A stretch of DNA of 64,000 nucleotides from Nitrososphaerota archaeon (GTDB taxonomy: Archaea; Thermoproteota; Nitrososphaeria; Nitrososphaerales; Nitrosopumilaceae): assembly GCA_005877205.1 (NCBI GenBank), contig VBPL01000041.1:1-64000 (forward strand). Reading direction: 5' to 3'. The notes beneath the pieces were generated by a model that was not told the origin of the DNA, made no database searches, and saw only the letters and a program-made list of their open reading frames with translations. This document shows, in pieces, positions 31,278-49,174 of this stretch (the first letter of the stretch is position 1; every line of letters starts with the position of its first letter). The translations under genes and the position numbers were made by a program.

Positions 31278-32252
31278 CTATTCTAATTGTTCTAGGTCAA
31301 GATCTATCTTTATGCTAGAATCTGGTTCATCCCAATCGAGTACACTTTGTTTTGGAATGAAACCTAACGGATCATATTTGTCAAAACGAGTCTCTCCTTC
31401 TATTGATGTCAACAAGACTACCTTAGATCTTTCACCACCGGTAACGGATAGACTAACACGAGTGCTATCATCGCCAAATATTCCACTAATTGTATTTACC
31501 ATTGAATTCAGAACACCAACCGGAACTTTACTTCCTCCAACAACATACAGCAATGCACTTTTGATACTATTTGGTGAAGCATCTTCATAGAGCATCTTAA
31601 TTGAGTCTCTAAGGGACGTCTCTACGTCAGGTATATCTTTGCTTGTTGAAAGTATGTTTGTTTGAAGTGGAAGCGACGAATTTCTTAGACCGGAAATAAC
31701 TTGTAATAATGCCGAGTTTGATATGCCATTACATGAATCTGGAGTTAGGTCTGGGTTGCTTTCTAGTAGTGCATCATTATCTACTATTATAGTACAGTCA
31801 GAGTTTGCCTTCAGTCTCTTAAGGGAAACTCCAGAGAAGAAGATTCTATCCTTTTCGAACTTGAATGGCATAATCCCAAAGGAAAGAACATTCTTTCCAA
31901 ACTCCTTTCCAATTTGAGAAACTATCGGCGCCAATGCGGCACCTGATTTTCCTGCTAAATTAGCGATTATAATAATAGTAGAATAAGGCTTCATTCTCTC
32001 TGCAATTGATCCTCGAGCGCCAAACGATATACCTCTTATAAGATATGCAGATGGATTCAGAATGGGATTAGTATTTATCAAAATTCTAGAACCTTCATGA
32101 TCAAGATCTCTTTGGTCGTGACTTATTAAAAGACACTCATAACCGAGTTTGTCTCTTATACTAATTGCAAGTTTACACCCCGCTCCACCTAAGCCGACAA
32201 CTAGGACGGGGTCTTGCATTACAAATTCCATGACTCTCCTTCTGCTTGCCAA
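31278..32252 (-). CDS. ftsZ: FtsZ-like tubulin-superfamily protein, thaumarchaeal divergent type
   Basis: A 324-residue protein with the FtsZ opening VLVVGLGGAGCKLAISIRDK (residues 16-35) and the general strand order of FtsZ. The canonical GGGTGTG loop is replaced by ANLAGKSGAALAP at 98-110, and the catalytic T7 loop with its NxDxxD is not recognisable near 196-212. Thaumarchaea divide with Cdv proteins and keep such altered FtsZ copies of unclear function. GTP-driven polymerisation is doubtful here. Starts at 32252, or at Met8. It converges on eL31 and lies 55 bases after the MtaB gene in the same direction. Confidence 0.8.
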   Translation of the reverse strand: MASRRRVMEFVMQDPVLVVGLGGAGCKLAISIRDKLGYECLLISHDQRDLDHEGSRILINTNPILNPSAYLIRGISFGARGSIAERMKPYSTIIIIANLAGKSGAALAPIVSQIGKEFGKNVLSFGIMPFKFEKDRIFFSGVSLKRLKANSDCTIIVDNDALLESNPDLTPDSCNGISNSALLQVISGLRNSSLPLQTNILSTSKDIPDVETSLRDSIKMLYEDASPNSIKSALLYVVGGSKVPVGVLNSMVNTISGIFGDDSTRVSLSVTGGERSKVVLLTSIEGETRFDKYDPLGFIPKQSVLDWDEPDSSIKIDLDLEQLE

Positions 32253-44529: not shown

Positions 44530-45480
44530 TCAACCTTTTATTCCGTGTGATAAAAATACTGAATAGCAACCTAATCCACAGTCCTCGCATATTGGCTTCA
44601 TGGAATCATTTTCGGCACTTCCAATACAGCATGGTTGCTTTTCTCGGCCTAAGTGATCAACTGCAAGTATGGTCCATGTGGGGCAATCAACTGGGATTGT
44701 TCCCCTGCCTCCCCAATTTCGCTTCATAAGCTCAAGCTGCTTTTTTGGATTTATTATATAGTCATCCTCATAGTTGTTCTTAAGTGCAATCATGTCATCT
44801 ACAAGCTTTGTTCTGTCAGGACCAAATGGGAACCAGAGTGGATCCCCTTTCATAAACGGAGTATGGAATTGAAATCCTATCTTGTTGACATGAGGATACC
44901 ATTCCTCGATAACATCCTTGACTGTTTTGTAGTTAACTGAATTTATGGTCATTGAAATCCAAATATCTTTCCACGCCTTTTTTCCATTTTTTTCGATGTA
45001 ATCTAGAATATTTTTTCTAGTCTTTTCATGCGCTCCCTTGCCTCTAATAGTATCATGAACTTGTTGCGTACCATCGATGGAGATCCAGTAAAAATAAACA
45101 CCAGGAGTTTTTTTTAACGGAAAAGTACCATTTGAGACAACACAAACTCTGTTTGGGTATTCTTTTGCGAATAATTCTATAACATCAGGCCTTAGGGTTG
45201 GTTCGCCACCAACTAGAGTAACTATGAATACATGTCTCTTTTTGAATTTGTTCTCAATTACTTGCTTCCACTGTTCTACTGAAAGCTCTTCCTGGTCTTT
45301 TCTATTTAACCACCAGTAGCAGTGAGTACAATGTAAATTGCAGACATTTATGATATCGGCAGAACCATAAATTGGGCTTCGTTTGTTAAACAGTTTGTAA
45401 CCTGCAATTTTCATACCTACGCGGAAATATGCGGGGGCTTCTTGCATTATTTGACGAAACCCCCTACCCATTATCTCCAT
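44530..45480 (-). CDS. Radical SAM protein with C-terminal Cys cluster
   Basis: A 316-residue radical SAM enzyme. The cluster motif CNLHCTHC lies in ADIINVCNLHCTHCYWW near residue 48. Extra cysteines appear at the end (QPCCIGSAEN, ICEDCGLGCYS), which may hold a second cluster as in SPASM-like enzymes. The early LFNKRSPIYGSADI and length recall HpnH-type hopanoid or lipid-modifying enzymes, but the substrate is unproved. Divergent to the TRAM gene. Confidence 0.75.
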   Translation of the reverse strand: MEIMGRGFRQIMQEAPAYFRVGMKIAGYKLFNKRSPIYGSADIINVCNLHCTHCYWWLNRKDQEELSVEQWKQVIENKFKKRHVFIVTLVGGEPTLRPDVIELFAKEYPNRVCVVSNGTFPLKKTPGVYFYWISIDGTQQVHDTIRGKGAHEKTRKNILDYIEKNGKKAWKDIWISMTINSVNYKTVKDVIEEWYPHVNKIGFQFHTPFMKGDPLWFPFGPDRTKLVDDMIALKNNYEDDYIINPKKQLELMKRNWGGRGTIPVDCPTWTILAVDHLGREKQPCCIGSAENDSMKPICEDCGLGCYSVFLSHGIKG

Positions 45481-45931: not shown

Positions 45932-46480
45932 TTAGTAGTTCTTCTTAATCGATAGCGTCTTTTGCACTTCATTCATGCTGCTTAGAAACTTCTGTTTTGC
46001 CTCATATTCATCTGTTACCTTTATGAGAATTTCAGAAGCAGAAAACATCACATCTTTTACCAGAATTGGGGCGCTAAGGCCCAGCAGTTCGCTTAAAATC
46101 TCAAATATGCTGGTAAAGACTGTTCCATTTTTGTATTTGAAAGTAGTATTGCCATCAACAATCTTTGGATTTGGGTCCAAAGGTATGACGAGCTCAGGCG
46201 ATGTAAATTCTGTTATGAAAGTTGTTATGTCTTCCTTTATTTTGTTAGCAAGGTTTTCTTTTTCAACAGTAAGCTTTTGCTTTGCATTCTCTAATTCTGA
46301 TGTAGCATCATTGTATTGTTCTCCTATCATTTTTGCAAAAGTTGATTCTGTAGAAATCTTGAGAGGAATCTCGTGAATTCTGAAATTTATTGTGGCAAGC
46401 TCATCCTCAACATCGGCTAACTGTTGCCTGTTTCTCTTAATGCGAGTAGCGACTTGTTCTAGGTAATTAAAGTCGGCCAT
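45932..46480 (-). CDS. Coiled-coil protein encoded with artubulin
   Basis: A 182-residue protein. About the first 100 residues are heptad-like helices (IKRNRQQLADVEDELATINF, LENAKQKLTVEKENLANKI), followed by a beta/alpha tail with VIPLDPNPKIVDGNTTF and LVKDVMFSASEILIKV. No known family. The ATG is two bases after the artubulin stop; a TTG overlapping it as TTGA adds two residues. Such tight coupling suggests a direct partner of the tubulin, for example a nucleator, anchor or regulator, by inference. Confidence 0.8.
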   Translation of the reverse strand: MADFNYLEQVATRIKRNRQQLADVEDELATINFRIHEIPLKISTESTFAKMIGEQYNDATSELENAKQKLTVEKENLANKIKEDITTFITEFTSPELVIPLDPNPKIVDGNTTFKYKNGTVFTSIFEILSELLGLSAPILVKDVMFSASEILIKVTDEYEAKQKFLSSMNEVQKTLSIKKNY

Positions 46481-46482
46481 GC

Positions 46483-47871
46483 TCAACTGAATTGGTGTAC
46501 GACATCCATAAGACTTTGCTTGAACTCTTCAGTTGTAAGCCCCCACTTGCCATATTCTTCCTTGTACGCATCCCATGATGCCTCTGCTTCACTTGCAATC
46601 TCTAGGATCTTTGGTCCTATAGCTTTTGTATTTACAAGAATTGTGACATTTGCTTGCTCACTCTCTAAGATTGGGATTTTAATAAATATCATTCTTGATT
46701 CCTCAATATGGAACCTGTCTTTTATCATATTTTTTAGAATCTCTCTTTCCCTTACATCAAACTCTCCTTTGACTTTGACTAGTGCACAGCATGAATCCTT
46801 AGGTCCGCCCTTATCTCGAATATCATTTTCATCTATATCAAATAATACGGCATCTTCTCGCTTGTGTATGTGTTCAACAATGGCTTCCATCATGTTGGCC
46901 TTGCCGCCGGGAATAAAGTCGCTTCCCCACGGTCTATCTTCTGGAATAATTGGAATTACCCACGGTATGGCAAATCTTGGTCTCTTTGTTGCAAGCCATG
47001 TTCTATAATTTGACATATCCCATTCGGTCTCCCTAGCAAACGAAGCGATGAACATAGCAATGGCATTTGCCGCAATCAAATTCATACCTCTATATTCTTT
47101 CCAACCTATTTCGTGTTCTTTTGGAAGATCGTCAATTATTGATTGCAGTTTTTCCAATCTTTTCTCGTGTTTATGAGATAGATATCTTAGAGTCTTGTTT
47201 GAAAATAGAATTGAACAATCACTGTACTTTATTTGGTGTTCCAGATTCATTACGATATTGATTGCAGATGCCTCCAGGATTACTGGGTCCCATCCAAATT
47301 CTGGAAGTAATCCAAACGACGCTATAGTTGCATGCTCTTTCGTGTCCTTTTTGATATACTGCATAAACGCACTAGCAAACGAGCTTCCAGTTCCTCCTCC
47401 CATCGCAAATGGTATGGTAAAACCTCTGACTGGTTCTGGTGAAAGACCTGCTAGCTGTTTTTGCATGTCAAACTTTGAGCTTACCTCTTTCATGAATCTG
47501 GTACGTCCTTCTGCCCAGTTTCTTGCTGCACCGCCAGCTCCGTGAATTACATGCTTGTCTCTTAGAGCAAACAGATCGGGATATGATTGTAATATGAGAT
47601 TAGCTGCTCTTGGGTCCAAATCTATCAATAAAGCTCTTGGTATCAATGGAATTTCGCTACCCCCATAAGAATTTGGAAATCTTAGAATAGTACTGCCATA
47701 GCGCTTCAGAACTCGCGCTTCTTCCTTTTCACCCTTGAGAGTTGGCTTGAGTGGGTTGGCTCCTACGTCAAGTAATAATCTTCTATATGCTTCTGCTCCA
47801 AGTCCTATACCACAATGACCAAAACATGTCATCAATACAGGCGCTGGTGGTAAGGGGGCAAGCTTTGACAA
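46483..47871 (-). CDS. Artubulin (archaeal tubulin homologue)
   Basis: A 462-residue protein with eukaryotic-tubulin order and length. FGHCGIGLGAEAYR (residues 18-30) fits the T1 loop of tubulin (AGQCGNQIG), ALLIDLDPRA (80-89) the AVFVDLEP strand, GAGGAARNWAEG (111-122) the ANNYARG loop, FAMGGGTGSSFASAFM (155-170) the GGGTGSG phosphate loop, SDCSILFSN the SDCAFMVDN region, and KRPRFAIPW the YPRIHFPL region. Asp285 in TEWDMSNY sits where the T7 catalytic acid is expected, though the preceding Asn is Glu. GTP binding and polymer formation are likely. Start is TTG. Confidence 0.88.
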   Translation of the reverse strand: MSKLAPLPPAPVLMTCFGHCGIGLGAEAYRRLLLDVGANPLKPTLKGEKEEARVLKRYGSTILRFPNSYGGSEIPLIPRALLIDLDPRAANLILQSYPDLFALRDKHVIHGAGGAARNWAEGRTRFMKEVSSKFDMQKQLAGLSPEPVRGFTIPFAMGGGTGSSFASAFMQYIKKDTKEHATIASFGLLPEFGWDPVILEASAINIVMNLEHQIKYSDCSILFSNKTLRYLSHKHEKRLEKLQSIIDDLPKEHEIGWKEYRGMNLIAANAIAMFIASFARETEWDMSNYRTWLATKRPRFAIPWVIPIIPEDRPWGSDFIPGGKANMMEAIVEHIHKREDAVLFDIDENDIRDKGGPKDSCCALVKVKGEFDVREREILKNMIKDRFHIEESRMIFIKIPILESEQANVTILVNTKAIGPKILEIASEAEASWDAYKEEYGKWGLTTEEFKQSLMDVVHQFS

Positions 47872-48042: not shown

Positions 48043-48360
48043 TTAGTCTTCAGTTAACGCTTTTTTCAATTCCCTAAATTCATCGATTGTTATCTGGCCT
48101 TCTGCAAGTCTGATTCTGAGAAGATTTAGGGATTCGTCGCTTGGTTTAGGTTTCTCTTTCTTAGAAGATCTATCCTCATATTTGTCTTCTACCACTTGTT
48201 GTTCTGAATCATCTGATGTAAGACTTTGGATGTATCTATAGTCTGACAAAAGAAGAGGGTTTCCTTGCTTTATCGTGTCAATTATCACTCGTAACCGTTT
48301 GGCGTCGCCCTTGCGAGAAGCTATTAAGTCTCTAACAGTCTTTAGAAGGTCTTCTGACAT
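48043..48360 (-). CDS. SHOCT-domain protein with thaumarchaeal N-terminal module
   Basis: A 105-residue soluble protein. Residues 1-48 form a helical module (SEDLLKTVRDLIASRKGDA, GNPLLLSDYRYIQSL) shared with proteins at 56.5 and 60.5 kb. After a charged linker, LRIRLAEGQITIDEFRELKK is a SHOCT oligomerisation motif. It begins one base after the TPR-protein stop, so it may act with it. Function unknown. Confidence 0.7.
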   Translation of the reverse strand: MSEDLLKTVRDLIASRKGDAKRLRVIIDTIKQGNPLLLSDYRYIQSLTSDDSEQQVVEDKYEDRSSKKEKPKPSDESLNLLRIRLAEGQITIDEFRELKKALTED

Positions 48361-48361
48361 C

Positions 48362-49174
48362 TTATTTCACAATTGCCTTAAACCGAGGATCCTCTTTTAG
48401 TTTATTGAACGTCGCATCCTTTATGGCCCAGTTTTTTATTGTCCTACCGTAATACGATATCGCCTGGGCAAGAAGAACAAGTGCATCATCATCTCTGCCA
48501 ACTTTAGCTATGCTTCTTGCCTTTGCATAGATTACAGTACCGTTCTTTGGATGTTCCTTGAGAATTTTATCAAATACTGAAATGGCTTCGTTATGTTGTC
48601 CAAGCTCTGAAAGCTCATTGGCTTTGTAAAATAATGCCTCGTAATTTTCAGGTTCTTTTTCTAGGACCTTATCAAAGCATAATGCTGCCTCATCATGCTT
48701 TTTCAGCTTCCCTAGGACAAGTCCTTTGTAGTATATCATGGATGTATTTTCTGGTTCTATCTTTAGGGCATCATTGAAACAACCAAGAGATTCATCATAT
48801 TTTCCAAGTTTTATTTTGGCTAAACCTTTGTTGTACAGAGCTGGTGCATAGTGAGGATCAATATTCAGGGCTCTGTCATAGAAACTAAGTGCCTTTTCAA
48901 ATTGGTTCAATTCTGCAAAAGAATTTCCAAGGTTGTTTAATCCAGAAATATGATTTTGATCTTTTTCAAGAATTTGCTCAAAGCAAGATATGGCTTCCTT
49001 GGGTTTGCCTAATTTAGTTAACGATAATCCTTTGTTGTACAGGGCTTCAACATTGCATTGTTCGCCTTTTAACACTTTATCAAAAAATGAAATGGCCTCC
49101 TTATGCTTACCTAACTTGGCATAAGACATTCCTTCAGAAATTGTCATATCAACCTCGCCTCTGGTTAGATTCAT
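48362..49174 (-). CDS. TPR-repeat protein
   Basis: A 270-residue protein made of about seven tetratricopeptide repeats, e.g. EALYNKGLSLTKLGKPKEAI and PALYNKGLAKIKLGKYDESL, forming a helical scaffold for protein-protein contacts. No signal peptide, so it is cytosolic. Partner not visible; the adjacent SHOCT protein gene is a candidate. Confidence 0.88.
   Translation of the reverse strand: MNLTRGEVDMTISEGMSYAKLGKHKEAISFFDKVLKGEQCNVEALYNKGLSLTKLGKPKEAISCFEQILEKDQNHISGLNNLGNSFAELNQFEKALSFYDRALNIDPHYAPALYNKGLAKIKLGKYDESLGCFNDALKIEPENTSMIYYKGLVLGKLKKHDEAALCFDKVLEKEPENYEALFYKANELSELGQHNEAISVFDKILKEHPKNGTVIYAKARSIAKVGRDDDALVLLAQAISYYGRTIKNWAIKDATFNKLKEDPRFKAIVK

Follow-up and report, generated by a model that had tools for sequence, protein, structure and literature searches.

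The stretch of DNA considered here (the window; 64,000 nucleotides of contig VBPL01000041.1, from a 1.56-Mb, 99% complete assembly of a Nitrososphaerota archaeon) carries two adjoining genes on the minus strand. The gene at 46483–47871 (−) encodes an artubulin of 462 residues and runs from a TTG start to a TGA stop, and the gene at 45932–46480 (−) encodes a partner protein of 182 residues, counted from a conserved ATG, which combines an N-terminal helical hairpin with a C-terminal alpha/beta domain. Translation of the open reading frames reproduced the coordinates given for both genes in a first-pass annotation of the window, and all motifs that this annotation had read as tubulin-like (FGHCGIG, ALLIDLDPRA, GAGGAARNWAEG, GGGTGSSF, SDCSILFSN and KRPRFAIPW) are present in the artubulin translation. 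Artubulin matches the Tubulin/FtsZ GTPase domain of Pfam (PF00091, E=1.5e-16), and PDB searches with its sequence return Asgard tubulins at the top (1.5e-17) and gamma-tubulin next (about 1e-12). With a profile built from 20 artubulins, Heim-alpha-tubulin is matched at E=5.7e-22 and gamma-tubulin at 7e-14, and FtsZ is absent among the 60 matches listed in the PDB searches with the sequence and the profile. The window's own FtsZ shares 25% identity with artubulin over 84 residues in a single comparison (E=0.003). The proposal that the protein is tubulin-like and not an FtsZ is borne out by these profile searches, which rank Asgard tubulins and gamma-tubulin first; none placed it outside the tubulin branch. 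Relatives in the window's family (f1), including Nitrosotalea and Nitrosotenuis records, are 75–97% identical over all or most of their length, and the protein thus displays both features by which an artubulin is recognised, namely greater likeness to tubulin than to FtsZ and full-length homology to the family of the ammonia oxidisers. Among nine near relatives, dN/dS is 0.015–0.034 for artubulin and 0.028–0.066 for the partner; hence, both genes are functional and under strong purifying selection.

The GTP-binding T4 loop of artubulin, GGGTGSS, is encoded at 47380–47400 (−) and covers residues 158–164; its GGGTG core, the mark of GTP binding, does not vary among 28 artubulins from four families. 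The T7 loop and the start of helix H8, RETEWDMSNYRTWL, are encoded at 46993–47034 (−) (residues 280–293, with E283, D285 and N288), and in the same 28 artubulins the segment RETEWDMSN[YF]RTWL is invariant save for one Y/F position. As annotated, the T7 Asp is retained (Asp285) and Glu (E283) takes the place of the tubulin Asn. The position which we take to be that of the catalytic Glu254 of alpha-tubulin, in a register set by eye against tubulin sequence, holds neither Glu nor Asp; it is Asn288 in the window and Asn in 28 of 28 artubulins. HMMER alignments of artubulin with tubulins end near residue 234, before T7, and a search with the T7 region alone matched no tubulin. The role of Glu254/Lys254 has been described (PMC13394414). 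Given Asn288 at this catalytic position, GTP hydrolysis by artubulin may be slow or chemically different. Artubulin would be a GTP-binding and probably filament-forming protein of the tubulin family. The window also encodes an FtsZ paralogue of 324 residues (31278–32252, −), 15 kb from artubulin, and since its T4 loop is degenerate (NLAGKSGAALAP, not GGGTG), this protein may not bind GTP in the canonical way.

The partner ORF spans 45932–46486 (−) in full. Its likely start, the ATG at 46480, is conserved in relatives as M-x-D-F/L and lies 2 nt past the artubulin TGA, in agreement with the annotated distance of at most two bases; an alternative TTG start further upstream would overlap the artubulin stop by 4 nt. 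At loci with a clear start, the partner begins 2–16 nt after the artubulin stop, which suggests that translation of the two genes is coupled. The description of the partner as a coiled-coil protein holds for its N-terminal half but not for its C-terminal half, which AlphaFold2 models as a small alpha/beta domain. Helices are predicted at about residues 4–37 and 59–92, with a short helix between them, followed by a beta-alpha-beta domain that ends in a long helix. In one relative (L004) the two genes are separated by a single in-frame TAG, and reading through it yielded a fused chain of 646 residues, modelled with 31 alignment rows. Within this chain the partner has pLDDT values of mostly 80–95, which fall at the hairpin tip (residues 34–50), as might be expected of a binding loop. 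The artubulin half has a pLDDT of about 30, and a PDB fold match of the fused model to tubulins (E about 2e-4) was set aside as the product of a low-confidence chain. Folded alone, the partner reaches a pLDDT of 73, and a PDB fold search with this model gave no match at E<=0.001. Searches of Pfam, NCBIfam, PDB sequences and PDB folds returned no significant match to the partner; weak Pfam matches of single partner members, among them HMMR_N, Mis12 and Prefoldin, were regarded as coiled-coil noise, and an ASRP match (E=0.0012) was dismissed on the same ground. Profiles of Snf7/CdvB do not match the partner, and the families listed for 30 partner members do not include them.

Across the order, 98 artubulin genes were found in 95 of 400 sampled genomes, not counting three weak matches (E about 5e-4), which are to proteins of 900 residues with a tubulin domain. 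In 94 of the 98, the next gene downstream is the partner, in the same orientation and at most 35 nt away from the artubulin match, and the remaining four (G296, G334, G326 and G335) are at contig ends or truncated there. The expectation that the pair would be conserved in relatives is therefore upheld, and artubulin genes consistently lacking this neighbour were not seen. The pair is kept in the window's family and in families f3, f10 and f13, and pairing is still intact where identity has fallen to 53–59% for artubulin and about 25–34% for the partner; the other neighbours vary between genera. Artubulins had been said to occur in a few ammonia oxidisers, and they do occur there, but they are also found in two deep-branching families, at 53–59% identity. 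Outside the order, no artubulin was found in a 400-genome sample of the class or a 320-genome sample of the phylum, and no partner in the 400-genome class sample. One f3 genome (G002) harbours two complete artubulin–partner pairs in different surroundings (L130 and L131). A pair is also present on BMAH01000059.1 (L036), a record titled Gammaproteobacteria bacterium BBSC-SA02, with an artubulin 80% identical to that of the window; in view of this pair, the record probably carries a wrong label or is of mixed origin.

Where artubulin is absent, the partner is usually decayed or reduced. It is a 40-residue scrap with an internal stop in G183, from the window's genus, is reduced to frame-broken pieces in G220 (genus g4), and in G013 (f13) is 93% identical to an intact partner but contains stops and a frame break; artubulin was undetected in all three genomes. 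Among the f1 genomes of the 400-genome sample that lack artubulin, none was found to have an intact partner. In another f13 genome (G027) the contig breaks off on the artubulin side of the partner, and this case was excluded as uninformative. Two families differ. In six f2 genomes the partner is intact but lacks a four-residue Pro/Lys loop (residues 38–41, P-[LKR]-[KR]), and in about 40 f8 genomes it is shorter and the whole N-terminal hairpin is gone; artubulin was not found in either family within the samples searched, and the C-terminal domain is retained in both. The partner had been called dedicated to artubulin, a word to be qualified since the altered homologues of f2 and f8 persist without artubulin. 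Phylogeny alone could explain how the f2 and f8 partners differ.

The hairpin tip is encoded at 46322–46381 (−) and covers residues 34–53, which in the window's family read H-E-[ILV]-P-L-K-x-x-T-E-S-x-F-A-K-M-x-G. P39, the basic residue at 41, F48 and G53 are kept without exception in those aligned artubulin-linked families whose tip is intact. In f1 and f3, conservation along the partner peaks at the tip (0.78 identity versus 0.39–0.74 elsewhere). Between f1 and f10/f13, identity is 0.25–0.33 at the tip and 0.35 in the C-terminal domain, so that the tip is no more conserved over this distance. Because of this, the case for a tip contact draws on the few invariant residues and on the pattern of loss, from which we infer that the tip contacts artubulin and that the C-terminal domain does something else.

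Hence, we propose, with a probability of roughly 0.55, that the locus is a two-gene operon for artubulin and an obligate accessory protein that acts on the filament. Both proteins would be made from this one operon, and the accessory protein would form an antiparallel hairpin of helices and contact artubulin with its tip (P39-x-[KR]41 ... F48 ... G53). The C-terminal alpha/beta domain, at the opposite end, would hold a second, artubulin-independent contact, and the protein would anchor, cap or regulate the artubulin polymer as a filament-associated factor. That the operon is conserved is no proof of binding, and as adjacency shows only common regulation and a common need, the two proteins might be co-expressed in one pathway without touching. 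We consider this quite unlikely, as the pair stays joined although its surroundings differ between genera and as remodelling of the partner tracks the loss of artubulin, both of which fit physical coupling better. The partner might also be a folding or storage chaperone, with a role like that of prefoldin or the tubulin cofactors and no action on the filament. Prefoldin-type chaperones typically have hairpin coiled coils, and the tight coupling of the two genes and the loss of the partner along with artubulin would suit such a protein. However, only one of 30 partner members has a Prefoldin match, which is trivial (E=0.061), and the persistence of the C-terminal domain in f2 and f8 would be odd for a dedicated chaperone, which leaves this explanation unlikely in our estimation.

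The proposed operon of artubulin and a filament-associated protein comprises two genes across the order, and further neighbours appear to be local. Upstream of artubulin in the window lie a gene for a 105-residue protein with a weak SHOCT-like C-terminus (48043–48360, −), whose conservation does not reach beyond the window's genus and near relatives and which stands outside the core pair, and a gene for a 270-residue TPR protein (48362–49174, −), whose synteny is confined to the genus level and which persists in a relative that lost the artubulin–partner pair. Downstream of the partner, a radical SAM gene (44530–45480, −) was considered as a third order-wide member and rejected, as just the window and a single near relative have it behind the pair. 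In three f2 loci (L121, L122 and L123) a radical SAM gene, 45% identical, directly abuts the artubulin-free partner. In f10, a protein of 311–325 residues is encoded just downstream of the partner on the same strand (L110, L111, L113, L114 and L115; Pfam has no match for the L110 member), and a gene with a VWA domain is often found upstream of the pair in divergent orientation; both are possible extra members of the operon in that family.

Type III partition systems likewise place a small partner gene next to a gene of the tubulin family, and the pair could accordingly be read as a segregation cassette like TubZ–TubR, in which the partner would serve as DNA-binding adaptor. Yet the flanks, searched for repeat or iteron arrays, contain none, the partner has no match to a DNA-binding domain, and several pairs are located on single large contigs of 1.6–2.0 Mb. 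The combination that marks TubZRC, a DNA-binding adaptor and an iteron centromere beside the tubulin gene, is thus not what is found here, and we regard a segregation cassette as very improbable. TubZ–TubR and CetZ are prokaryotic filament systems of the tubulin superfamily too; compared with these, artubulin is closer to tubulin, and its locus is devoid of iterons and of a DNA-binding partner.

The adjacent gene that has received attention so far is a different one. Artubulins were defined by Yutin and Koonin in 2012, who stressed a neighbouring Snf7 gene (PMC3349469), and an adjacent Snf7/CdvB gene has been discussed for the artubulins of Nitrosarchaeum (PMC3349469) and Nitrosotenuis uzonensis (PMC3835317). 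In the window there is no CdvB gene beside the pair, and an adjacent CdvB gene is not constant and hence not defining for the artubulin family (PMC3835317). In the Nitrosarchaeum-type loci L128 and L133, a CdvB1/B2 gene (NF041005, E=5e-43) lies directly upstream of artubulin and the partner lies downstream; the previously reported Snf7 neighbour and the partner are therefore different genes on opposite sides of artubulin. As an extension of the 2012 proposal, the pair could cooperate with the Cdv/ESCRT-III machinery of cell division, with the partner as the link between artubulin and CdvB. Besides L128 and L133, a CdvB-like gene about 3 kb from the partner on one f13 contig speaks for such a link, but most genera, and likewise N. 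uzonensis (PMC3835317), have no CdvB gene beside the pair, and L132 retains its CdvB gene at the spot where the pair was lost; we hold this reading to be improbable.

The artubulin of the window resembles those of Nitrosarchaeum and N. uzonensis in being closest to eukaryotic tubulins, in belonging to the same archaeal order and in occurring alongside an FtsZ paralogue. In contrast to the 2012 and N. uzonensis accounts, as far as the accessible parts of both go, the constant neighbour is here the downstream coiled-coil gene, which was not singled out there, and the family now extends to deep-branching families of the order. A 2023 survey noted that coiled-coil genes are frequent near archaeal tubulin-like genes and mentioned Snf7 for artubulin; its main text, in the portion consulted, does not describe a conserved partner family (PMC9871819). 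The partner is not described in the literature text that we could consult, and an earlier depiction in figures or supplements is possible. What appears undescribed is thus the obligate partner family and its co-inheritance with artubulin throughout the order, the artubulin family itself having been known since 2012.

Accessory proteins are known from other prokaryotic tubulins. BtubC is reported to stabilise the BtubA/BtubB filament of Prosthecobacter (PMC9871819), and as proposed for the artubulin locus, the accessory protein is encoded in the operon. However, BtubC is a TPR protein whereas the artubulin partner combines a helical hairpin with an alpha/beta domain, and Prosthecobacter has an A/B pair of tubulins where the artubulin locus has one. 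A TPR protein thus also accompanies bacterial BtubAB, but the TPR link at the artubulin locus (Nitrosotalea) holds at the genus level only. The closest solved relatives of artubulin by sequence are Asgard AtubA/AtubB (PMC13394414) and OdinTubulin. The coiled-coil neighbours of the latter, Prc1/Snf8-like and ATG16-like, were reported as specific to one genome (PMC9871819), whereas the artubulin partner is conserved across an order. Possible archaeal microtubule-associated proteins were said in 2026 to remain to be probed (PMC13394414). Since it is almost always adjacent to artubulin and usually decayed or cut down where artubulin was lost, the partner stands out as a strong candidate for what would be the first helper known for a microtubule-like protein of archaea. 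A constant, co-lost partner provides a concrete second protein to study, with P39, K41, F48 and G53 as specific residues to target and the homologues of f2 (tip missing) and f8 (hairpin missing) as natural controls.

The distribution of the pair also bears on its history. In an rpoB tree rooted at midpoint, the families branch in the order f10, f13, f7, f2, f3 and then f8 with f1 (the f10 sequence of G121, an aberrant long branch, is to be ignored), and the main splits are common to the partner and artubulin trees. On the simplest reading, the ancestor of the order already had the pair, f2 and f8 lost artubulin, and f7 and many f1 genomes lost both genes; transfer is a possible alternative history. 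More tentatively, and with less confidence than we attach to the accessory-protein model, the pair may be a cytoskeletal module that the whole order inherited as a unit from its common ancestor. The partner would then be the first dedicated archaeal protein associated with a tubulin-family polymer; two families would have shed the hairpin or its tip after losing artubulin and kept the C-terminal domain for another job. Published trees leave the position of artubulin unresolved, and its spread through the order bears on whether it was acquired late or is an ancient tubulin of archaea. Two f7 genomes encode a tubulin-domain ORF of 431–439 residues near an ORF of 903–904 residues that also has a tubulin domain (G006:C9:37205-40623 and G021:C45:1704-5122).
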